From assembly GCF_000264995.1 (NCBI RefSeq), contig NW_006767433.1, forward strand, positions 1,954,876 to 2,018,875: a DNA stretch of 64,000 nucleotides. The letters run 5' to 3'. Origin of the DNA: Punctularia strigosozonata HHB-11173 SS5 (taxonomy: Eukaryota; Basidiomycota; Agaricomycetes; Corticiales; Punctulariaceae). Positions 27,256 to 43,359 of the stretch are shown piece by piece. Position numbers and translations under genes: made by a program. Position 1 is the first letter of the stretch; the number at the start of each line of letters is the position of its first letter. The notes beneath the pieces are model-generated. The model worked only from the letters and a program-made list of their open reading frames with translations. It did not search any database and was not told where the DNA came from.

Positions 27256-29855
27256 CTAATCGTCCTTCGATTTGGTCGACGTCCTGGAGAGATAGCTCGC
27301 CGCGCCGTCCGGCATATTCCTCACCTCCAATCTCCGCGAATAATCCTCCTCGTCCCGCGGCTCGTCGTCCACGTCGCCCAACCGCGCGTCCTGCCCGCCG
27401 CTCCCGCTCCCGTCCCCGCTCTCGTCCGAATACACGCTGCTCGCCCGCCTCTTGTCCCCGGAAGGGCCGACGACGGCCACCGGCGGCGGCCCACCGAGCA
27501 ACGCGCTCGCCGGCGCTCCGCCACCGGGATCGGCCAGCCCGCGGTCGACGACGCGCTGCGGATTTCGCGGCGGCGGGCTCGGCGCCGCGCTCCCTTGACT
27601 GTTCGCGCGCGCGTGGCCCGCACCGAGCAACGGCTCGATGCTCCCCGCGCTGGGCGTCGGCGCGTGCCCGCTTCCGGTAGACGTCGAACCCGTCGGCCGG
27701 TGTCCCTGCCGTCCGTCGTTCTCCGAACCGTCGAGCGCGAGCCCGATCAGCGCGGGCGGCATCGCCCCCGGGGGCGGCGGAGGCGTGGCCATGAGCGCCT
27801 GGCGCTCCGCGGGCGTGCCGGCCGGCGTCGCGAACGGGTCCGCATACCGGTCCGCGTAGCCGCCCTCGACGCCGGGGGTCGTCGGGCCCGTGCTGGGGAG
27901 GTGCTGGGTGAGGGTCGAATAGCTGACGTTGCCGTACCGCGCGTTCGTGCCGAGGCCGAGGTTGGGGATCGTGGGCCGCGAGGAGGACGAAGGGTAGTTG
28001 AGGACGGAGGACGAGCGTCGCTGGCGCATGTCGCCGGACCCGTCTGCGTCCGCGTCGTCGTCACCGTCGTCATCGTCGTGCAGCGGACTGCGTCCGAACC
28101 CGGCCGCGGCGAGCTCGGCCTGCACGGCGGTGTCGTGTTCGAGCCGCCGTGTGCGACGGCGACGGCGGATACAGAAGAAGAGAAAGAGTGCGGCGGCGAC
28201 GAGGGCGACGCCGATGCCGGAGAAGAGACCGGCGACGGCGCCGTGGTTGGCGAAGAAGGTGTTCGAGGAAGAGGGCGAGTCGGTGGACAGGTGCGGGTTC
28301 GCGATGGCGGTGGTGGAGATCATCGTCGTGACGTCGCCGTTCGGTTCCGTGCTGTTGAGATTCGTCGTCAGATCTGGAATCGCGACCGGAAGCAGAACGG
28401 AGGCGTACCTGACCACGGTCATGAAGCTGGTGATCTCCGCCGGGGTGGAGGTGATCGTCGCGCCTGCCGCATTGGTGGTGATGATCACGACCGTGGACTG
28501 GAACGTCGATCTGAGAAGCGCGTCGTGAGTGAGACCGGCGCGGAAGCAGTTTCACGTGAAACAGGACGCACCCCGCAGGAATGATCGTCACCGCCTGGGT
28601 TTCGGTAGCGATCGCCGTGACCTATGGAAGGACGGTCAGGGGCCAATAAAAAGGGTGGCTCATGACCGGGTGCCGCTCACAAACTCGGTCGACGCCTCGG
28701 TGCCCAACACCGTGCTGCCCTGCGCGTCCGTGGAGGTGATGACGGTGGTGACAACGTTCGCGTGGGTGCTGGTGATCGTGACCGGTTGGGAAGTGACCCT
28801 CAACGTGCTCGTCTGGCCGTGTTCGCTCGACACGACCTGGGTCGTCGTCCCTCCGCTCACGATTTCGGTGGTCGTCCCGCCTTGATCGCTGGTCACCTGC
28901 GTGGTCGTCGTCGGACCATCGGTGGTCACTTCCGTAGTGGTGGTGGGCCCTTCGGTCGTGATCTGGCGGGTGGTGGTCGTGCCGCCGTTGGAAGTCGTGC
29001 CGCCTTGGTTGGTGGTCGTAGTGGGCTGCGAGGTGGTTTGCTGACTGGTCGTCGTCGTCCCGCGGTCGGTGGTGACCTGGGTGGTCGTGGTGGTCTGTTG
29101 CGTATTTTGGGTGGTGACCTGGGAGGTGGTGGCGGCGGAGGAGGACCCGGTGGTGGGATCATTGGAAGACATGACCGTGGTCGGGGACTGGGAAGAGGCG
29201 GAGGTGGTGGGATCTGAGGAGGATGTGGTCGGGCCGGAAGATGCGGAGGTGGAATCTGCGGGGGATTGGGCGGTCGAAGTGGCGAGGCTGGTCGTGCTGC
29301 GTGAAGGGTATGAGCGCGATGAATGGGACGAAACTAGGTGGACGACGCTCACGAGGCTGCGGAAACAGTCGAGGCCGTGGTGGTGTCGTTCGGAGCGGTG
29401 GTCGTGACGGAGGCGGAATCCAGGGTGGCAGAGGTGGTGGCAGGAGCAGCAGAGGTCGTAGCAGGGGCAGCAGAGGTCGTAGCAGGAGCGGTCGAGGCGG
29501 CCGTCGTGGCAGAGGTCGTAGCAGGGACAGATGTGTCGAGGGTGGTGATGATCGCGCCGCCGGACGAGGACATGGATTCCGTCGCCGTGCCGGGGTTTCC
29601 AGAGGCCGAGATCGCAGAGGCGGCGGCGGTGGAAGAGGCGGAGGCAGCGTCCGACAGGGTCGCGGTGGCGGTCGTGGCGGCGGCGGTGTTCGTGAGTTGC
29701 GTTTGAGATTGCGTTTGCGAGGCAACAGAGGAAGAGGAGGAGGGAGGACTCGTCAGAACTTGTCCTTGGAAAGGCAAACGGATGAACAAGCTGCCAGACG
29801 AGCGTCCGAGAAGATGCAAAGGAGGAGAAGGCGGCGTGGCCGGAGCGGGTACCAC
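27256..29855 (-). CDS. Ser/Thr-rich single-pass membrane protein, paralogue 1
   Basis: Mucin-like cell-surface protein; function unknown, but the design resembles fungal wall-stress sensors (Ser/Thr-rich stalk, one membrane helix, disordered tail). The ectodomain holds PATTSAA repeats and a long Thr/Gln-rich block (TTTNQGGTTSNGGTTTTRQ), then VVTTVITSTDAQGSTVLGTE and STVVIITTNAAGATITSTPA. The membrane helix follows NTFFANHGAVAGLFSGIGVA and is bounded by CIRRRRRTRR. The roughly 280-residue cytosolic tail is Pro/Ser/Gly-rich and includes DYSRRLEVRN near the end. Four joins between 29350 and 28300 were worked out in phase. The 5' end is unsure: the first exon may begin at 29855, or a signal-peptide exon may lie upstream, near a hydrophobic ASLCAAIAIATS stretch at about 29930. 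Two paralogues follow. Confidence 0.75.
29427..29530. repeat. 21-bp tandem repeat in the membrane protein stalk
   Basis: Units built on GCAGAGGTCGTAGCAGG (plus strand) repeat about four times, with some interruption, and encode PATTSAA on the minus strand. This in-frame minisatellite lies in the Ser/Thr-rich ectodomain, where length variation between strains would be tolerated. Confidence 0.7.
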
Positions 29856-30027
29856 TGGCAGCAGCTGTGGGCCGCTCGTCGGTGGCGGCGGGGGTGCGCT
29901 CGTCGATGGTGGGTGCGCTCGTGGATGTCGCGATGGCTATCGCAGCACAAAGACTGGCGAGCCGGCGCGACGACGAGAAGGGAAATACGAACACCCGGTG
30001 GGCGGCGCACGAGGGGCAGCAGAACAA

Positions 30028-30372
30028 AACAAGGGATGCAGACTCGGAGACTCACCGGTGTCTGTGGAGGAGGCTGGCTGCTGCTGCTGCCTCGGTCGGG
30101 GCGCGCGCTGGGTCATGTCATGTCCCCGGGACTGTGCTGGAGAGAGCGAGCAAGGCAAAAAGGCGGCACAGCGACCACCGCGTGGGATCGGCAACGTCAT
30201 ACTTGGTTCGGCACCACTCGGCACCCACGCCCACGGCTCGCTGCTCGCTATCACCCACGCTCTCGACGCTCTATTCGCAGCCCGCGCATACACGCCCACC
30301 CCCATCTTATCTCGCCATATAGACACCAGCCATGCTCGCCGCCCACGTCGTTGCCCGACCCCGCGCTCGACG
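30028..30372. promoter_or_regulatory. Divergent region, membrane protein 1 / isochorismatase
   Basis: About 345 bp upstream of the isochorismatase start, facing the 5' end of the first membrane paralogue. Reading frames are open on both strands because the DNA is GC-rich, but no motif is seen. The exact 5' end of the membrane gene is unresolved, so the limits are approximate. Confidence 0.35.
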
Positions 30373-31405
30373 ATGGCCAAGCGCCGCCCGCGCGTAGCGA
30401 CCCCGACCCAGTACGGCGAGACGCTTTCCGAATCCGGCTTCTGGGTCGAGTACCCCGACGGCCTCGTCGACCTCACTCGCACCCGCCCGCTCTCTCTTAG
30501 CCTCGCCTCCGATGCCCACCTCCTCGCTTGCGATGACGCCGCCAGCCCACCCCCGCTCGATGCCGACACCCAGATCGAACTCCCCGTCGACGGCGAGCGC
30601 ACCATCCGCCTGACCGGCGCCAACACCGCGCTCGTCGTGGTCGACATGCAAAACTTTTTCCTCCACAAGGACCTGCGCGACCATCCGACGGGGATCGCAT
30701 GCGTTGACCCGCTGCTCGCCGTTGTCCCGGCTTTACGCAAGCACGGCGTCCGCATCATCTGGCTGTGGGTCCTTCCTGTCCTCGTGCATTGCGCCCGACT
30801 TATCATGCCAACACCAGCAACTGGGGCCTCACCCCGCAGGAGCTGCATACCCTACCGCCCTCTCTCGCCCGCCAATTTTCGCGCTCTTCTCGCGGTGGCT
30901 TCGGCTCCCCTCTCCCCGACCCTTTCGGTCCCCTCCTCATGCGCGGCTCATATAACGCCCAGCTTTACGGACCTCTCCAAGACCTCTACCTTGCCGGTCA
31001 CACCGCCGGGACTGACGTCTGGATACACAAGAACCGCATCAGCGGCATCTGGGGCTACCAGTCTGCGCTCGACCTCTACCTCAAGGAGAACGGCATCCGG
31101 AGCCTGCTCTTCGCTGGCGTCAACGCCGATCAGGTTTGTCCCGTGTTCCTGTGTGGGAGCAAACAGTTGATCCCCCAGCGACAGTGCGTGATGGGCACCT
31201 TCTCCGACGCCTACTTCCGTGGCTACGACGTCGTCATGCTCCAGGACGCGACCGCCACCACTTCTCCAGCAGGCGGCCTCGAAAACGTCCTCTACAATGC
31301 GGGTGTACGTCCCTTCACGCATTTCGCTGCCACGCTCGAGTCTCATCGGCCATGCAGAGCTATGGCTTTGTTACAGATACCAAGCGCGTCGTAGAAGCTC
31401 TCTAA
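30373..31405 (+). CDS. Isochorismatase-family cysteine hydrolase
   Basis: Cysteine hydrolase superfamily (isochorismatase, nicotinamidase, N-carbamoyl amidohydrolase); the substrate is unknown. Four exons in phase (30373-30764, 30818-31133, 31185-31304, 31358-31405), 291 residues. The catalytic Asp lies in TALVVVDMQNFFL and the nucleophile Cys in NADQCVMGTFSDA, split by an intron just before the Cys. KNRISGIWGYQSALDLYLKE and SLLFAGVNADQ carry the beta-strand before it. The closing SYGFVTDTKRVVEAL comes from a 16-codon exon. From the third line of exon 1 onward the gene is repeated beyond the N gap. Divergent from membrane paralogue 1. Confidence 0.88.
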
Positions 31406-31538
31406 CGCAGTGTACACTACAATGTATCGATGAATATGGAGCAGCGACGAATCGGAAGAGCGATCATCAACCAAGCGCGTTTATGTCTCATACATAAAAT
31501 GCGGACCCCGGGCCCCCGACCCGAGCCTCTCCCTAATG
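30556..31538. repeat. Left copy of a 983-bp duplication ending at the N gap
   Basis: This block recurs at 31694-32676 with a constant offset of 1138. Wherever I compared the two copies they are base-identical, including introns and the 3' flank. It stops exactly at the first N. Confidence 0.9.
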
Positions 31539-31693
31539 NNNNNNNNNNNNNNNNNNNNNNNNNNNNNNNNNNNNNNNNNNNNNNNNNNNNNNNNNNNNNN
31601 NNNNNNNNNNNNNNNNNNNNNNNNNNNNNNNNNNNNNNNNNNNNNNNNNNNNNNNNNNNNNNNNNNNNNNNNNNNNNNNNNNNNNNNNNNNNN
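31539..31693. other. Assembly gap of 155 N
   Basis: Run of N between two identical 983-bp sequences. The left copy ends and the right copy starts exactly at the gap borders, the pattern expected when two overlapping contig ends are scaffolded without merging. Confidence 0.98.
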
Positions 31694-32543
31694 CTCGATG
31701 CCGACACCCAGATCGAACTCCCCGTCGACGGCGAGCGCACCATCCGCCTGACCGGCGCCAACACCGCGCTCGTCGTGGTCGACATGCAAAACTTTTTCCT
31801 CCACAAGGACCTGCGCGACCATCCGACGGGGATCGCATGCGTTGACCCGCTGCTCGCCGTTGTCCCGGCTTTACGCAAGCACGGCGTCCGCATCATCTGG
31901 CTGTGGGTCCTTCCTGTCCTCGTGCATTGCGCCCGACTTATCATGCCAACACCAGCAACTGGGGCCTCACCCCGCAGGAGCTGCATACCCTACCGCCCTC
32001 TCTCGCCCGCCAATTTTCGCGCTCTTCTCGCGGTGGCTTCGGCTCCCCTCTCCCCGACCCTTTCGGTCCCCTCCTCATGCGCGGCTCATATAACGCCCAG
32101 CTTTACGGACCTCTCCAAGACCTCTACCTTGCCGGTCACACCGCCGGGACTGACGTCTGGATACACAAGAACCGCATCAGCGGCATCTGGGGCTACCAGT
32201 CTGCGCTCGACCTCTACCTCAAGGAGAACGGCATCCGGAGCCTGCTCTTCGCTGGCGTCAACGCCGATCAGGTTTGTCCCGTGTTCCTGTGTGGGAGCAA
32301 ACAGTTGATCCCCCAGCGACAGTGCGTGATGGGCACCTTCTCCGACGCCTACTTCCGTGGCTACGACGTCGTCATGCTCCAGGACGCGACCGCCACCACT
32401 TCTCCAGCAGGCGGCCTCGAAAACGTCCTCTACAATGCGGGTGTACGTCCCTTCACGCATTTCGCTGCCACGCTCGAGTCTCATCGGCCATGCAGAGCTA
32501 TGGCTTTGTTACAGATACCAAGCGCGTCGTAGAAGCTCTCTAA
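31694..32543 (+). CDS. Isochorismatase-family hydrolase, 5'-truncated duplicate
   Basis: Same gene as 30556-31405, starting inside exon 1 at the edge of the N gap, so the first 61 codons are missing. All three introns and the stop are identical to the first copy. It keeps the catalytic Asp (VVDMQNFF) and Cys (DQCVMGT). Because the duplication ends exactly at the gap on both sides, I regard it as a probable assembly artefact rather than a second gene. If real, it would be a very recent tandem duplication. Confidence 0.55.
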
Positions 32544-32844
32544 CGCAGTGTACACTACAATGTATCGATGAATATGGAGCAGCGACGAATCGGAAGAGCG
32601 ATCATCAACCAAGCGCGTTTATGTCTCATACATAAAATGCGGACCCCGGGCCCCCGACCCGAGCCTCTCCCTAATGTCGTCCGTTCGAGAATCTGTGTAC
32701 CGCCAACTCAAGGACCACTCGACCGCCCGCGGCCATGACTACAACTGTACTATTCGCAGCCCGCTGGCAAAACGCAAACGCTGATCTCTCCCGACAGCAT
32801 ATAGAACGAGCCATGGTATCTATCATCACCGATTCAACGTCCTC

Positions 32845-33521
32845 GCGTAACCGTATGGCGAATCTCTCTCTGAATCCCGGTATTGGGTCGAGTACCCCAG
32901 CGGCCTTGTTGACCTCACTCGCTCGCACCCCTTGACTGACGGCGCCGTCGCTCTGCCCCCGCCAGATCTTGACCCCCAGATGGACATTCCCGTCGACAAC
33001 GAGCGCACCATTCGCCTGACCGACAGCAGCACGGCCCTCGTCGTCGTCGACATGCAAAACTTCTTTCTCCATAAAGCCCTGTTCGACCACCCGACGGGTC
33101 TCGCGTGCGTCGATCCCCTGCTGCCCGTCGTTCCAGCCGTGCGGAAACGCGGTGTGCGCATCATCTTGCTGGACTTGTACCTCCCAGAGAACGGTATCAA
33201 GAGCTTGCTCTTCGCCGGCGTGAACGCCGACCAGGTACCGAGTTTTTGACTTTCCTGTCCTAGGTCATAACTGACAGACACCCGCGCAGTGCGTGATGGG
33301 CACCTTCCCCGACGCCTTCTTCCGCGGTTACGACGTCGTCATGCTCCGCGACGCGACGGTCACCACTTCTCCGGAAGGTGGTCTCGAAAGCGCCCTCTAC
33401 AACGCTAGCGTATGTCCTCTGTCATATCCAGCGTGGCGTACTCTTACGGCTTCACCAGCTCTACGGTTTTGTGACGGACACGAAGTACTCCAGTCCGCAG
33501 AAAGTTCATAACGCAACGTGA
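32845..33521 (+). pseudogene. Decayed isochorismatase paralogue
   Basis: Diverged copy of the neighbouring hydrolase. Recognisable parts are ESRYWVEYPSGLVDLTRSHP, TALVVVDMQNFFLHKALFDH, ENGIKSLLFAGVNADQ, CVMGTFPDAFFRGYDVVMLR and LYGFVTDTK. Compared with the intact gene it goes straight from RIIL to LDLYLPENGI, so about 78 residues and one intron are missing. At the 5' end the counterpart of VATPTQYGE is shortened and out of frame with the rest, and no start exon is evident. The Asp and Cys motifs remain and a shortened frame is open from about 32930, so expression of a truncated protein is not excluded. Convergent with membrane paralogue 2. Confidence 0.6.
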
Positions 33522-33631: not shown

Positions 33632-35479
33632 CTACTCCGCATACGCAAACGCGTATCCGTCCGAAAGCGGTCTATGTCCCGTCGACCCCGACCCGGACCT
33701 CGGCCTCGTCTTCACGTTCAACACCGTCCTACCCGAATACTTTCTCGCCAGCCCGGTCGCTCCGCCCGCGTCGTCGAATCCCTCGCCCGAAATCCGCCCC
33801 AGAGCCTCGAACGGCTCATGCACCGACGCGGGCGGCGTCGCCAGCTGCTGCCGCATTCCGCCTGGCGGCGGGCTTCGCAGCGGGCTCCTCGGCTGAATCG
33901 GCGGCGGCGAACCGAGAGACGCCGCCGAGAAGCGCGCCAGATCGCGCGTGTCGATGAACGGGCGCGGGCGCGGCACCGGTGCGTGCACACCACCGCCCAC
34001 CGTGTCCTGCGACGCGTGGAACGGGTCGTTCGCCGCCGAAGAAGACGAGGCGGTCGACGGCCGCCGCCCGTGCCCGTGCCCGTGCCCGTGCCCGTGTCCG
34101 GAGCCGCTGTAACGCGATGGGCTGGACCCGCGCGAGCGCGAGCTCGAGCTCCGCGCCAAGCCGACGACCACGTCGGGCGTCCCGCTGTGTGCGCTCACGT
34201 ACGCCGCGCTTGTCGACGTTAGTTCCTCGTCCGACCCGTCTGACGCCGTCGCCGCGCCGGGCACGACGCCTACGCTCCCCTCCGCCGAGCGGTGGTCACC
34301 GGACGGGCCGTCGAACCGCGGCGGCGCCACCCGTCTCGCACTGCTATGCCTCACGTGGGCCGTCGCCGTCGCCGTCGCTGCCCCCGCTAGCAGCCGCTGC
34401 CGCTGAACGCGCTCCGCCATCGGCGTGCTCACGGAGACGGGCGTAGGCAGCTCAGTATGCCGATCGTCCGGCGTCCAGCTGTGCTCGCTCGCCGAGGTAC
34501 CGAGGTACGGGTCGCTGAATGGGTTCGCGCCGCCAAGTTCCAGCGGGCCGCTGATGAACTGCCTGCCGGGTGGGGAACGTCGACGGCGGCGAAGGACGAG
34601 ACAGACGGCGACGGTGCCGCCCACGATCACGAGTGCGATGGCCACGAACACTCCCGCAACCGCGCCTTTGTGGTTCCAGAATCTTACGATCAGGCCATCG
34701 TCAGTCCGAAAGTCCGTGATCATAGGAACGATGTCGCCCACTCACGAGTTTTGGTGAATAACCGCGGCGGAGTTGGAGGACGTCGTCGGATTGAGGCCGA
34801 TCGTGGTGATGGATGTAACCTGGCCATCGGCCAAGGTGGTCGCGACCACTTCCGTCACGGAAGCAGGCGTCTGCACGGAGATATGACCCCTGCTGTCCGT
34901 AGATGTTATTACCACGACGGCCGAGGACGATGCACCGCTGCTTTGCACCGGGCCCTGCCTCTCGGCTGCAGAGGACGAAGCCCCGGCGCCTGAAGAGCTC
35001 TGGCCAGCGGAAGCCGAGCCGGGACTGTGTGGCTGCGAACCAGACGATGTCGTGGATCCCGACCCCGGTCCCGACGCAGACCCGCCGGAGCTGCTCGATC
35101 CCGCGGCTTGCGTTGCCTTCGTCTGTTGCACCGGGCCCTGGGTCACATGCGAGGACGGAGCGCTGGAGACGGACGTACTCACATCGTTACTTTTAACTGA
35201 CGTTGGTTGGGCAGCCTCCGAAGTGCCCCCGGTATGCTGCGTGCTGAACGTGGATGAAGGGGAAGACCCATGGGTCGACGTCGGAGCAGGGGAGGGAGGG
35301 TCCGATGAGGAGGTGGTCGGAGACGGTTTTGACGACTCTGTGCTCGTCATCGTCGTGCTAGCCGATAGTGTACTGGCTGGGGTCGACGTAGTCGTCACGG
35401 GAGGTGAAGTCGATGTCGTCGACGAAGAGGTTGACGTCGACGTCGGAAATGTCGAGGTCGTTGAGTGGTGTGAGCCCAT
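33632..35479 (-). CDS. Ser/Thr-rich single-pass membrane protein, paralogue 2
   Basis: Two exons in phase (35479-34746 and 34682-33632), 594 residues as drawn. The ectodomain is almost entirely Ser/Thr/Pro (TSTFPTSTSTSSSTTSTSPP), ending in AVVVITSTDSRGHISVQTPA and TLADGQVTSITTIGLNP. The membrane helix follows SFWNHKGAVAGVFVAIALVI and is closed by LRRRRRSPPGR. The tail is about 330 residues, disordered, with an (HG)6 run and, near the end, ARKYSGRTVLNVKTR. No signal peptide is seen after the Met at 35479, so one more upstream exon is likely. Closest relatives in the window are paralogues 1 and 3. Its promoter side faces the 3.2-kb palindromic element, 465 bp away. Confidence 0.8.
34067..34098. 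repeat. CCCGTG hexanucleotide microsatellite
   Basis: Five copies of CCCGTG in a row, then CCCGTGTCC; on the minus strand this encodes alternating His-Gly in the cytosolic tail of membrane paralogue 2. Confidence 0.8.
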
Positions 35480-35944
35480 TCTCTGGGGGCTAGACAGCCG
35501 ATGAGCTCGACACTGTGCCCGACGTCAAGGACACGAATCCTTCAAAGAGAGGCGCCGAGGAAATCCGACCGGATACAGCTCGATTTAAACTATGATGTAC
35601 GAAACATCAAATGATCGAGACACTTCGTCACAGCCAGGTGCACTCACGCGCAAGGAGGGGACAATGTCTGATGGATCAGAGCATGCAGATCTTGCAAGGG
35701 GGAAGAAACAGCCAAAGGCAGCGCAAGTTAACGGCAATCCGGAGCAGACAAGGAGCGACGGCGGCTCGAGCGTACGACCCAAAGCCAGTAGCGAGTAAAG
35801 ACAGCTGGCCGTGATTGCGAGGCCCGGTGACCTGGCGCGCGGGGTCGAGCAGGCTGGAGAAGGCACTCGGACACCCGTTGTCAATTGCCAGCGCGACCCC
35901 ATGGGGCCCCCACACCAGAACAAATGCGAATCACATGGAGGACC
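35480..35944. other. Upstream region of membrane paralogue 2
   Basis: About 465 bp up to the palindromic element. Probably holds the promoter and perhaps a missed signal-peptide exon of paralogue 2. The left copy of the GGAGGACC target repeat is at 35937-35944. Confidence 0.4.
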
Positions 35945-38900
35945 AATGGTGTTAGCTGCCTTTGTACAAGGAATACGGCTATTAGCCAGGAATCTACTTG
36001 TAGTAAATCACGGCTATTTAGCCAGGACTTCGCCCGAGGCTGTACTGCGACCCTGCCGAGCCCTGCCGCCCATTACCAATCAATGCATGCCCATTTCGGG
36101 CGTCGGCTAATGCTCCCTCGTGCGAAAGCGGGCTCGGGGCTTGGGTCCCGGGGTGTTCTCCGTGGGAATCACCCATCAGATATGTCCTTCTGGGCCCTCC
36201 GAGTGTGGGAATTGGCCTCTGATGTCATCGGAGGCCCGATATCAGGCACGCCGATGCTTCTGAGAAGCATTCCCAGGCGGTAGTGGTCCTCCGAGGTGGC
36301 TGGCTGCCTAGCGTACACCTTTTGCGGCCTGGTATAATAACAAAAGTTGTATTTATCTGCATATAGAATACTATGGTGTAATATTTTTGAGCATAGCACT
36401 CACGGAAGATTACCAAATAAGGAAATACTCGATGTGGAATCACAGAATATGTGTTTCCTGCTTGCAGACAGATTACACAGGCGGGTCTAAGGTTCCCAGT
36501 GAGTTGATTGCACTCAGAAGACATGTTCCCATAGTTACAGTACAGGTTAATAGGGAACTAATATGTTAAAAAGGCGAAAATAGGGATGGGGAAGACAGAA
36601 ACATGGAACATGATATACACACCTAAGGGTGGTGTCATATAGTGACTAGAAGATAGATAATGCCTGTATTGGTGTATGAGGAGGTTTTTAAGGGGTATGG
36701 GGACAGATTGAGGCGTCGATGAGAGGGAATGTGTGGAAGAGGTGTCAGAAACAGAGATAGTAGAACAGGAAGTGAACATAAGATGATAGGGAGACAGGTA
36801 TGGCTTCCCTGACATGATATTACATAACACATACCTTAGATACGAAGGACTGACGGTGGGGAAATGAGAGACGGAGTGAAAAGGGGATGGGGAGGCCTAA
36901 TCTTCGAGATAGCTCGTGATCGGCGACGTGAACTTCGGATATTATTGCAGAATCAAATTCTTCGGAGAAATCGGGCTCTAGAGAAGCCTGAGATTACGAG
37001 AAAAGGTGGGAAACTCGTTGAGTAATGGAGGGGGGAGGGGGAGGGGGAGAGGAGGGGGGATTTCTATAACGGCTGGAGATTACACCAAACGTGTGTAGGA
37101 GCATGTTAATGACCTAGAAATGATATCAGATATCAAAAACGAGATGAGGTTTATAAGAGGGATGCGTTGGGGAAAACAGGGGGGTAGAGAGGCAAAAAGC
37201 GTGCTACAGGCAAATGTACGGGGAAGGATAACGACAGAAAACAGACAGAGAACATACCTTAGCATCCCACAGATATAATACCCCAGCAATAATACATCTT
37301 AGAACGTCCTACGTGTCAGTATACAACGTTGACTGCGATGAACCCAAATCGTCGAAAAGCGACCGTCGAGCGTCAACGAAGAGCGCCAGCGGATCAACCA
37401 AGATGTCATAAGAAAGCCAAAAATCGTAGCAGTCTATAGAGCCAATAAATATGAGAAAGCGTGCAGTGTAGCATGAGATATGCCCGGAACAGTCGGCGAC
37501 AGGGTGTTGGTGCAGTGAGCTGCATGAGGCGCGGCTGTGTTGATGTTGTCTGGCTGCACAAACTCATCACCTGGACGGTGTCTTTCCCTTCCACTGGCGA
37601 TATCTCATGCTACACTGCACGCCTTCTCAATATCTGTGGCTCTATCTACTGCTATTATCTCTGGCTCTCTTCTGACACCCTGTCTGACTCGCCGGCATTC
37701 TTCGTTGACTCTCGATGACCGACTTTCGATGTTTTGGGCCCACCACGATGAAGTGTGCATACTGCCACGTATACCGTGCTATACCTCACCAAAGCTGCTG
37801 GATTATGATTGGGAGATGCTAAGGTATGTTCTCTGTATGTTTTTTGTCACTATTCGTCCATGTACATGTCCCCGTGCCACATTCTTTCCATCCCTGTCAT
37901 CATGTCTACCCCGGCCCATCCTCCCTATTAATCCCATCTCGTTCTTGATATCTGGTATTTTTTACATGCCCTAAGCCTATTCCTGAAAGAATTTGACGTG
38001 GTGTTCAGCCGTTGTAGAATGCCCCCTCCCTCTCCTCCTCACCCTCCTCCCTCTATTCCTCCACGAGTTTTCCACATTTTTGCGTCATCCTTAACTGACT
38101 TAGAACCTATTTCTCACGCAGATTACGATTCTGAAATAATATCCGAGGTCTCCTTCGCCGATCGCAAGTCATTTCGAGGATTGTGTTGTCCCGTCGACTT
38201 TTCTTTCCTTCCCTCGTCTCCGCACCGTCGGATCTTCGTATTTGTAACATGGAGTGTCCCCCTACATTCCAGGTAAGCTTCCCATGCCGCCTCATTGTTG
38301 ATCCTTCCCTCCTGGTTTCGTCATCTCTGTTTTTGACGCCCCTCCTTCATATTTCCTTCCATCGACACCCCATTTCGTCACCAAACCCCCTCAAACTTTC
38401 CACGTGTGTTAATGAATGTATTTAACGTCCTTTGTATGCTATATGATGTCTCTTTGACCCTTGGGCAACATGGCATATAACCCTTCTCACCCCACCGCAT
38501 TTTCTTGCATTTTGGGTGTTCTTCTGCTTATTAACTTGTCTTCTAACCTTGGGTACATTTGATTGGAATGCAATATACATGTTTAAATTTATCTCTCCGC
38601 TGAAGTAACCAATCTGGAAGCAGAAACCGCTTGTTCTGTGGTCCCAAATCGAGTATTACCTTATTTGGTAAGTCCCCATAAGTGCTATGTCCGAATAAAA
38701 TACACCATTGTATTTTGCATGGAATTATCTACAATATTTGCTATAATGCCTCGCCATGAATCCGGTTCGCCAAAGGGCTGGCAGGCCAACATATGCATGG
38801 GACACAGCCACTGCTACCCGGGAGGAGCACTACCACCCGGGATTGCTTCTGAGAAGCACCGGCGTGCCTGATATCGAGCCGCTGATAACATCAGAGGCCG

Positions 38901-39126
38901 ATTCCCACACAAGGAGGCCCGGGAGCCGAGCCCCGAGCCCGTATTCAACGCTTTCTCACGACTGAGCATTAGCCGACACCCCAAACGGGCGTACATTGAT
39001 TACTAATGGCCCGCAGGGCCGTAATACAGCCTGCGGACCAGTCCTGGCTAATTAGCCGTGAGTTACTACAAGCAGAGCCCTGGCTAATAGCCGCGCTCCT
39101 TGTACAAACACAGCTAACACGGCTGG
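35945..39126. mobile_element. 3.2-kb foldback-type element: one giant imperfect palindrome
   Basis: The left half (35945 to about 37481) and right half (about 37600 to 39126) are inverted copies of each other along their whole length, with a central spacer near 37482-37599. Matching blocks found by eye include the ends (GTGTTAGCTG and CAGCTAACAC), CGGCTATTAGCCAGG, GCTTCTGAGAAGCA, AAATAAGG-AATACTCGAT, GTCGATG with CAGAAACAGAGAT, GATCGGCGA with CGGATATTATT, CAGAGAACATACCTTAGCAT, and the inner 23-bp pair beginning GCGTGCAGTGTAGCATG. Arm identity is roughly 70% by eye. GGAGGACC flanks both sides (35937-35944 and 39127-39134), an 8-bp target duplication as left by hAT-like transposases. No protein-coding capacity was seen. 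I call it a foldback DNA transposon derivative; the family is not known to me. Confidence 0.7.
37026..37062 (+). repeat. G-run tract inside the left arm
   Basis: Four or more runs of five or six G separated by single A bases (GGGGGGAGGGGGAGGGGG) could form a G-quadruplex. The mirrored position in the right arm (about 38016-38056) is C-rich (CCCCCTCCCTCTCC), so the tract is part of the ancestral arm sequence. Confidence 0.55.
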
Positions 39127-39134
39127 GAGGACCG

Positions 39135-39783: not shown

Positions 39784-42443
39784 CTATGCACATACATCTA
39801 GCAAGGTTCGCCGAGAATACTTCCTCGTCAGTGTCCGCGTGCCATCTTCGGGTGAGCTCGCCGCCGCCTCCGATTCGTCCAGTATAGCATCCAAACCAGG
39901 CCGTGGTGTAACGTCGTACGACGGACTGGGTGGCGGAGTGCCCGAGAGCGACGCCGAGCGGTTGTGAGACGACACGGACGGGGGCGGCGTCAGCAGCTGC
40001 ACGTCTTCCAAGGCCATTTTGGGAGGAGGCTTCCGCATGGCACTGCGCGGCCTGATAGGCGGAGGTACATCGCTCGCACGGTGCTCCATGGACATGATAG
40101 GGGGCGGCACCGCGACGACCGGCGCGGGGTCATTGAATGGGTTCGCGGGAGCAGGGTCCTCGAATGGATTCGCCGGCTTGCTACCACGCGCGTAGAACGA
40201 GTCGGAATCGTCGCCCGGTAAAGACGGGCTATAGCGCGACGGACTGGATTCCCGCGACGGACGAAGGGCGGACGCGGGTACCATGGTGGTGGCCGTCTCA
40301 TCTCCGGGATAGACCGTTGCGGTACGTGGCGTCGGCGGAAGCGAGCTATCGATGGCCAGCCCAACCGGTGACGCGGCCGAGTTATAATCGCTGAAAGGAC
40401 CTTCGTACGATGTCGGCGACACCACCCGGCCACGGTCCACCGAGGACCGGGCCATGATAGGCGCATGGTATGCTTCGGACATTGCACCTTCATCGGTGTG
40501 GGCGGCGCGGTAGTTGGAGCTGTTAACGCTCTCGCGACGATTGGCGAAAGGGTCCGTAAGCGAGGCGTTCCATGGGACAGGCACCGGCCAACTGACGACT
40601 CGGCGCCCAGCACGACGACGCCTGTTTCGCCTCGAGCAGTAACAGTAGGTCCCGAGGCCTAACAACGCCAAGGCGAGAAGAGCGACCACAGTGAATACAC
40701 CTGCGACGGCAGCTTTGTTGTGCAAGAACCCGTTGCTATTGGTATACTCAGTTAATTCGTATGAAGCGATATCCAACAGTAGATACTTACGTGTTGTCAC
40801 GAAGTGCGGATGATCCATTCGTAGATGAGGTGACACTCGGATTGGCAGCGACCTGGGTGACAGAGGTCACTTGACCGTCCGGCAGCGTCGACGGAGCTAC
40901 TTTAGTAACGACGGCGGGCGTAGAGACCGTCGTATGCCCTTTACTGTCCGTTACGGTAGTCACGACGTCACTGCTGAACGTGGTGTCCGCAGATGGAACG
41001 GGAGCTTGTATGCGTGCGCCGCCCGAAGACGAGATGGCAGATTGAGCCTGAGTCTCGGAAGAACCTGCCCGGCCTGCTCCGGAAGACGGCGCCGACGGTT
41101 GTTTCCCGGATGCAACCGAAGTCGTTCCGTCTCCCTGCGTCACGCTGGCACCAGTTATTGCCTGTTGCGAAGCAGATGGCAGAGGGGAGCCAGTAGGTGC
41201 TGCCTGGGACGACGGGGTGAGAGATCCAGCGTTCGCGGGCGCGGATTGGCTCTGGGGAGCTGTCTGCACTGGCGCATTCTGTGGCACGGATGTCAACGCT
41301 GGAACGGAGCTAGCGACGAAGGTGGAGCTCGCGACAGGCGCAGAGCTTGCCACAGGAGTCGTGCTCGCGACCGGCGTGGACTGAGCATGCTCGGCCGTGG
41401 ATGCTGGAGTGGACTGCACAGAACTCACGCTTGTACTTGATGGTGCAGATGACGCGGACGGAGAAGAAATTGCAGCAGGCACACTCGAAATCGAGGTAGT
41501 ACTCGGGGTCCCGGACTTCGTGGCAACGCGAGCAGAGGGGGACGAAGTGACGGCCGCGCTTTGCGAAGTGGCTGGACTCGACGATGCAGCTACAGTCTGC
41601 GCGGCGGCCGATGACGTGAATGCAGGCGACGGAGCTGATGAAGATGACTGCCCAGCAACGGGGCTAGAGGGAACAGCAGACTCCACGGCCTTGTTCAATT
41701 TGACGCTGGTTGATGCGCTGATGTATGCTGAGTATATGTCGAACTGCCCGAGGCATATGAAGCGACGCTTACGCCACAATCTTAACAGAGCTGGGGGACG
41801 CTGCCGGTGAGGCCATGGCCGGTGTCGCTCTCGCGTTTGTTGGCGAGGGAGCAGCGGAGGACGGCGCAGTAAAAGAGGAGGCTCCAGACCTAAACGTCAG
41901 AGGTAAGCCATCCAAGAGCTCTTATAACAACGTGGAAACCCCGTACGATGGTCCAGATACAGATGCAGAGCTGAGTATAGCTTCTGTCGAGCTAGCGCCG
42001 ATCCCAGGCACCGTGGCAGATTTCTCCGGCGCACTCAATGAAATGGACAGAGAAACGGTGGCGCTAACGGATGGAGACGCCGCTGCCGATGGAATCGTAG
42101 AAACAGACGCTACAGTCGAAGGGATTGCGTCGGACACAGCCGAAGCTGTACCTGAAGCCGATGACACTGGCGAATCCGTACCGCTGACAGCGACGGATGC
42201 CCTCGCAGAGGAAGCCGAGACGGAGCCTGTAGAAACGGAAGGGGCAAAAGACTGGCTGGGTGTTGAAGCTTGAAGAGACATCGACTGCGATAGCGCACTC
42301 GACGGTGTGCTGCCGGTTATCTGAAGTTGAACGTTGACGTTATATGCCCTGCGGCCAGATTGTATTGCACGTATGACGATGCTCACCGATTCGCTAATAG
42401 TGCGGGACAAGCTGGCCGCAGCAGATGCAGATATGCTCGTCAT
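39784..42443 (-). CDS. Ser/Thr-rich single-pass membrane protein, paralogue 3
   Basis: Third member of the local family. Exons run from about 42443 (Ser-rich, TSISASAAASLSRTISESVS), through SGASSFTAPSSAAPSPTNAR and VKLNKAVESAVPSSPVAGQS, to the membrane-proximal exon starting at 40735. The stalk ends in VVTTVTDSKGHTTVSTPAVV and TLPDGQVTSVTQVAANP, closely matching paralogue 2. Then comes NGFLHNKAAVAGVFTVVALL, the membrane helix, YCYCSRRNRRRRAGRR, a Pro/Ser-rich tail with repeated NPF motifs (ANPFEDPAPANPFNDPAP), and the closing LTRKYSRRTLLDV. NPF motifs are known endocytic EH-domain ligands, so recycling from the surface is a reasonable inference. The 5' end lacks a clear signal peptide; an upstream exon may be missing. 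Confidence 0.78.
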
Positions 42444-43359
42444 CTGAAACCCATTGACTCGGCGTCCGCCTCTTTCCGTCGCAGAGGACCTTAGAGGACT
42501 GCAGGGCGAAAGGTGGACCTCGTCTCCTTCTGGTCGTTATATGCATCCTGCAGCTACAGATTCCGTGAGACCGGGAAATTCTCGCGAGTCTCGGAACGAT
42601 TCTCACCGCTTCGGGAGCCATGGAGGAATCTTCTCACCATGCCGGTCTAATCGAAGCTGGTCATCTGAGAAAGAGATGATCCGGCATACGGGTCAATGTA
42701 GATTCTAGGAACGGCCTGTTCATATCAGTCGGTTAGGCTAGCGCGCGCCCGCCTAAGAATGAAATCAGTATTGATCATGTCACGTGCCTGCCTTTCTGAG
42801 CCTCCGGAGACACGACACGTCGACAAGATGGCCGCCCGACTTCCGGGAATCGCGCCAGCGATAAGGATGATTGGCAAGCTGCGGCGTTTATGAGAATCGC
42901 TGAGAGAGGTCAATCCGCGCGTTGACGAAGTCAGGAAGAGTACCGGCGTGCACGCGGAGGGCTTTCCGGAATAAGGTCACACGGAGCGAGTGCATAGCGA
43001 CGCAAATATCATCCGTTATTGAGGGGACTGAATTACAAATGGCGAGGTACTAGTGGACAATGTAGTTGAGCAAGCAGAACTGATGTGAAAGACCGTCAGA
43101 TCGTGAGTAGACTACGATGATTGGTATACGCACGGTGCGGAGTGAGAGCGTAATCGGGTATAGCATGAATAGTGGTATGTGAACGTGAACCGGGTAGGGT
43201 ACAGAGGGCATGCGGCAATAATCCCAGGGAAAAAGCGACACTGAAACATCGGCCGCGTGAGCACTCGACACGGCTAACGGCAGAGATCCTCCGACTCACA
43301 CATGTCTAAACACCTCGAAAGCGTCCGGTTGTATGTAGTGTACGTCACGATGGAAATCT
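42444..43359. other. Intergenic region
   Basis: About 900 bp between membrane paralogue 3 and the Rab gene. No coding, RNA or repeat signal that I can support. Confidence 0.4.

Follow-up and report, generated by a model that had tools for sequence, protein, structure and literature searches.

A 3.2-kb imperfect palindrome in a fungal genome, probably a non-autonomous foldback-type DNA transposon

Is a palindrome of 3.2 kb in a fungal genome a mobile element, and if so, of what kind? We analyzed the locus within its window, a whole stretch of 64 kb of DNA. The first-pass annotation had described a near-complete, imperfect palindrome of 3.2 kb, and both blastn and a global alignment bear this out, with the arms aligning from the tips to the spacer. 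Its parts are as follows (positions in the window).

35944..39125, no strand: whole palindromic element, delimited by arm alignment, blastn, flanking duplication and outer-block identity (start at 35945 in the 8-bp reading of the duplication)
35944..37481, + strand: left arm, from the repeat finder and the global arm alignment
37600..39125, - strand: right arm, an inverted copy of the left arm, from the repeat finder and the global arm alignment
37482..37599, no strand: central spacer of 118 bp, GC 0.60, with a self-match not clearly above shuffles

The two arms, each ∼1.53 kb long, are very long inverted repeats that make up most of the element. The repeat finder returned nine successive inverted pairs leading from the tips to the 118-bp spacer, which it placed at 37482-37599 as had been annotated. 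In a blastn comparison of the element with the window, a single inverted match paired 36840-39120 with 38241-35949 (66.7% identity with gaps counted, 658 bits, E=0.0); its 2,357 columns count the inner part twice, once from each side. Global alignment of the arms gave 1,086 identical positions among 1,471 aligned columns, with 206 transitions and 179 transversions, and an alignment with the ends reset gave 73.8% identity over 1,472 ungapped columns. When the alignment was repeated with slightly shifted ends, it contained 37 gaps, 7 of which are multiples of three. Divergence between the arms is thus ∼26% overall, 29% in the interior and 16% in the outer blocks, so that an earlier figure of roughly 30% describes the interior and is too high for the whole arm and for its outer blocks. 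The two halves of the spacer show no clear match to each other (149 of 2,000 shuffles reach the score), and blastn found no second copy of the element elsewhere within the 64-kb window. The palindrome is real, well delimited and mobile-element-like.

The ends of the palindrome are marked by the following sequences.

35937..35944, + strand: left target duplication GGAGGACC (35937-35943 in the 7-bp reading)
39126..39133, + strand: right target duplication GGAGGACC (39126-39132 in the 7-bp reading)
35949..35958, + strand: perfect terminal repeat GTGTTAGCTG, left copy, from blastn
39111..39120, - strand: perfect terminal repeat GTGTTAGCTG, right copy, from blastn (the + strand reads CAGCTAACAC)

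The target duplication flanks the whole unit. When flank positions were paired at random 200,000 times and compared with offsets of up to 5 bp per side, the chance of such a match was 0.00061 for at least 8 bp and 0.0025 for at least 7 bp; in 20,000 plain random comparisons of 16 by 16 bases, a match of at least 8 had a chance of 0.00145. The element can be read as 35945-39125 with an 8-bp duplication or as 35944-39125 with a 7-bp duplication (GGAGGAC). In the 8-bp reading four bases (AATG) lie between the left duplication and GTGTTAGCTG while five (GGCTG) lie between CAGCTAACAC and the right duplication, which makes the ends asymmetrical. The 7-bp reading gives the tips CAATGGTGTTAGCTG and CAGCCGTGTTAGCTG, whose first 60 bases align gap-free, and these tips are symmetrical with 5'-CA...TG-3' termini. 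On this one copy we slightly prefer the 7-bp register because of that symmetry. The 8-bp duplication originally annotated stands as an exact GGAGGACC on both sides, with the 7-bp reading fitting as well, while the boundaries given with it (35945-39126) ran one base too far on the right, where the element ends at 39125.

Further features are concentrated near the tips.

35944..36300, + strand: outer block of the left arm, better conserved than the interior (83.6% versus 71.3% identity)
38813..39125, - strand: matching outer block of the right arm, likewise conserved
35976..36115, no strand: left cluster of three GGCTAA/TTAGCC sites, two of them inside the small palindromes GGCTATTAGCC and GGCTATTTAGCC
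38964..39093, no strand: right cluster of four GGCTAA/TTAGCC sites, with GGCTAATTAGCC and GGCTAATAGCC

In the outer 310-360 bp, 254 of 304 positions are identical (83.6%), as compared with 833 of 1,168 (71.3%) in the interior (Fisher p=1e-5, a value that is flattering since the boundary at 36300 was picked after the sequence was seen). A test that needs no boundary agrees with this contrast: identity in 25-column bins was uneven beyond shuffles over the whole arm (20 of 2,000 reached the observed value) and within the shuffle range in the interior alone (537 of 2,000). The word GGCTAA, counted on both strands, occurs 17 times in the window, with 7 occurrences in the arm ends (375 bp), none in the interior (2,807 bp) and 10 elsewhere. 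The 7 at the ends compare with 0.06 expected from the rate outside, an expectation that also flatters because the word was selected after the ends were read. Several of the sites sit inside short palindromes, of which GGCTATTAGCC and GGCTAATTAGCC are examples, and the sites are likely candidates for transposase binding. Special conservation of the short palindromes themselves is not supported (36/40 identical positions versus 218/264 in the rest of the left outer block, p=0.36). The pattern would be most simply read as selection on the tips for transposition, with drift of the interior; gene conversion could be an alternative source of the similarity of the tips.

This uneven divergence bears on when the arms became different. 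It had been proposed that they differed before the element moved, on the argument that the target duplication is still perfect. The proposal gains support from the similar tips and drifted interior, but the argument itself is weak, as luck alone would leave an 8-bp duplication intact in 7-9% of cases at 26-29% divergence (0.7385^8, 0.7132^8). A stronger case comes from the uneven divergence, since decay that followed the last insertion should have affected the tips as well. The evidence favors an element that was mobile during arm divergence, which probably went on throughout the history of the lineage and not solely after the present insertion. As causes of the divergence we rejected both RIP and CpG decay: the rates of C/T differences (CpA 0.26, CpC 0.28, CpG 0.34, CpT 0.30) show no CpA excess and a merely slight excess at CpG. 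CpG observed/expected is 0.81-0.83 in the arms versus 1.18-1.27 in the flanks, and this reduction allows some past methylation.

We found no sign that the element encodes a protein. Its longest open frame, 148 aa, is within the range of 200 shuffles (mean longest 122, 95th percentile 175), and none of the ten longest of its 14 open pieces has a Pfam match at the curated cut-off, in agreement with the annotated absence of coding capacity. The best Pfam score was to a proline-rich model (E 0.004, 17.4 bits versus a cut-off of 38.6). In seven ungapped blocks the arm mismatches did not follow a clear period of three bases; together with the lack of a Pfam match at cut-off and the ordinary open frames this led us to reject a coding ancestry of the arms. 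Scans of 20 frames of the window and 10 pieces of the element detected no transposase, and the window holds neither a tRNA nor an Rfam match at gathering score. Purine content is 0.62-0.69 on the left at 36544-37543 and 0.32-0.38 on the right at 37544-38543 (five 200-bp bins each), so that the inner arms, read outward from the center, are pyrimidine-rich. The peptide likeness between the arms probably results from this pyrimidine-rich outward strand.

Could the palindrome have formed by some means other than transposition of one unit? Two related 1.5-kb elements might have inserted independently and head-to-head, 118 bp apart, with the outer word match arising by chance. The spacer, with a GC content of 0.60, resembles the flanks (0.57-0.60) and differs from the arms (0.47-0.48), as captured host DNA would, but the outer parts of the arms have a GC of 0.56-0.61 and composition is thus not decisive. 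Furthermore, the match between the arms is unbroken up to the spacer. Two separate insertions would each leave their own duplication, whereas neither arm has one at its inner end: the longest word shared by an outer flank and the adjoining spacer edge is 3 bp on each side, against 8 bp shared by the two outer flanks. In 20,000 random comparisons of equal size, shared words of at least 3 arise in 89% and words of at least 8 in 0.145%, and the 3-bp inner words therefore speak for one unit. This bears on a possibility named with the original annotation, that two unrelated insertions happen to face each other, and we regard a double insertion as improbable. A second possibility is that local, non-mobile DNA was duplicated in inverted orientation, for example by a hairpin-capped break or a replication template switch, and has decayed since. 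This would agree with the presence of only one copy in the window and with the even divergence of the interior, which is what neutral decay would give. Such an event predicts neither the flanking direct duplication nor conserved tips nor site clusters confined to those tips, and we consider it very unlikely.

It is also conceivable that the locus is one whose hairpin RNA has been selected as a source of small RNAs. The central 661 nt fold at -311 kcal/mol versus a mean of -190 for 20 shuffles (z -18.6), and the folded full element has 1,131 pairs between its halves; this strong fold is no special sign, because any palindrome folds so. Selected pairing would leave more G-U than A-C mismatches between the arms, and the counts of 105 G-U versus 99 A-C show no G-U bias and hence no sign of selection on a hairpin RNA. 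Uninterrupted helices of 22-23 bp number just three, with the next longest at 18. While a small-RNA role of the element is possible, a locus maintained by selection for that role seems to us highly improbable.

The palindrome, its duplication, the site clusters and conservation of its tips and the absence of visible coding are all observed, and from these we infer mobility, a helper transposase and a binding role for the sites. We consider it probable that the element is a non-autonomous foldback-type DNA transposon moved by a transposase encoded elsewhere. The same designation as a non-autonomous foldback element had been given from the letters alone; such an element, inserted in one piece, is well supported by the outer duplication, the lack of inner duplications and the conserved, motif-rich tips. 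In the mechanism that we propose, the two arms would act as long terminal inverted repeats spanning the entire element. A cut-and-paste transposase supplied from elsewhere would bind to the GGCTAA/TTAGCC sites close to the tips, cut the element out and join it into a target opened by a staggered cut of 7 or 8 bp, leading to duplication of GGAGGACC, while the interior would drift freely. A more speculative proposal, to which we give only a small chance, is a fungal foldback family, perhaps of the KDZ or of an undescribed superfamily, in which the whole long palindrome is what moves. Transposase selection would keep the tips as the arms drift by ∼30%, and each copy would carry a long imperfect hairpin that might evade palindrome instability as well as RNA interference.

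Several known systems share part of this design. The Drosophila FB family has internal tandem repeats in its arms; no tandem array with a score of at least 50 was found inside 35944-39125, and lacking such repeats the element is foldback in form but not an FB family member. The hAT transposons usually produce 8-bp duplications, and the element has 8 or 7 bp depending on where it starts; their inverted repeats are usually short, unlike the ∼1.53-kb arms seen here. The name KDZ stands for Kyakuja, Dileera and Zisupton, and the 7-8 bp duplication is within the KDZ range (4-8 bp in Cryptococcus). The KDZ1-3 elements of the basidiomycete Cryptococcus have 4-8 bp duplications and inverted repeats of 139-241 bp, are ∼9-11 kb long and encode a transposase (PMC12810828). 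Kyakuja elements of Laccaria have 7-bp duplications and 5'-CA..TG-3' termini, the two Kyakuja families there being described as without inverted repeats, and in rust fungi a Dileera has an 8-bp duplication and hAT7 a 7-bp duplication (PMC12730594). In its 7-bp reading the element is like Laccaria Kyakuja in duplication length and CA...TG termini, but it has inverted repeats, and those KDZ elements encode transposases. Galileo, a Drosophila member of the P superfamily, has mostly 7-bp duplications, with 8 bp in three copies, and 124 of 191 copies in D. willistoni consist of two inverted repeats without transposase (PMC4168063); its long repeats contain several transposase-binding sites (PMC3688188). 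The element shares with Galileo the foldback form, long inverted repeats and a 7-8 bp duplication, while the Galileo target consensus is GTATTAC as opposed to GGAGGAC(C) here and Galileo is from Drosophila. Tm1, a Mutator/Foldback element of root-knot nematodes, has composite foldback-type repeats with MITE-like members, 9-bp duplications and arms that are on average 93% alike within one element (PMC3169594). As in Tm1, the arms differ within a single element, but the tandem motif units that make up Tm1 arms are absent. The hAT link suggested at first is hence not established: the 7-8 bp duplication fits hAT, but KDZ and the P-superfamily Galileo fit too. By duplication length, as given in published descriptions, KDZ and hAT are both candidate superfamilies.

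No exact match to patterns of 23 and 25 bases was found in bacterial and archaeal genome contigs, nor to three patterns of 19-21 bases in viral contigs, and megablast against plasmids gave no match to the element. Two shorter patterns matched in 20 and 5 viral contigs. We rejected these 25 viral loci as relatives; among the matches listed (E<=1) they cover 16-38 bases with a best E of 0.003, and they were judged to be chance because the loci had been picked for that very word. As the collections are bacterial, archaeal, viral and plasmid, without a eukaryote genome set, absence of relatives from them says little. A search of full-text literature, in titles and the starts of abstracts of mostly non-subscription papers, found no description of a fungal foldback element, which is weak evidence of novelty. 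The element is ordinary in kind and unusual in form and host. If other copies exist, comparing their conserved tips with their drifting arms would give a measure of how long palindromes persist in a fungus, and could show whether imperfect arms lessen palindrome instability or small-RNA silencing.

Regarding the surroundings, the window encodes a Pex16 protein and a Ppz-like serine/threonine phosphatase (best PDB matches 5jpe and 5jpf); Ppz-type phosphatases are fungal, which makes a fungus the probable host and a basidiomycete a tentative guess. The element is flanked by minus-strand open frames at 33635-35524 and 39787-42536, each set taken by us as one gene, that encode related serine/threonine-rich proteins with one hydrophobic stretch as judged by eye. 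By tblastn these are 28% alike over 366 columns (E 1.3e-23) and 33% alike over 276 columns (E 1.5e-32), values inflated by running with the low-complexity filter and composition correction off. The element lies upstream of the first frame set (33635-35524), ∼0.4 kb beyond the edge at 35524, and could affect the promoter of that set. Together with 27463-30347, the two flanking sets form an apparent minus-strand tandem array of serine/threonine-rich, probably single-pass membrane proteins whose low-complexity similarity is partly compositional, and the palindrome is located between two of its members. Elsewhere in the window, two 983-bp copies that are 100% identical (30556-31538 and 31694-32676) directly border the sole N run, 31539-31693, and this pair looks less like a genuine tandem duplication than like an artefact of assembly at a scaffold gap. 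Each of the two contains a partial isochorismatase-like domain (E ∼1e-4, below the Pfam cut-off). An older, real duplication of this unit is probably present as well, since a third copy of parts of it, 76-79% identical, lies at 32853-33417.
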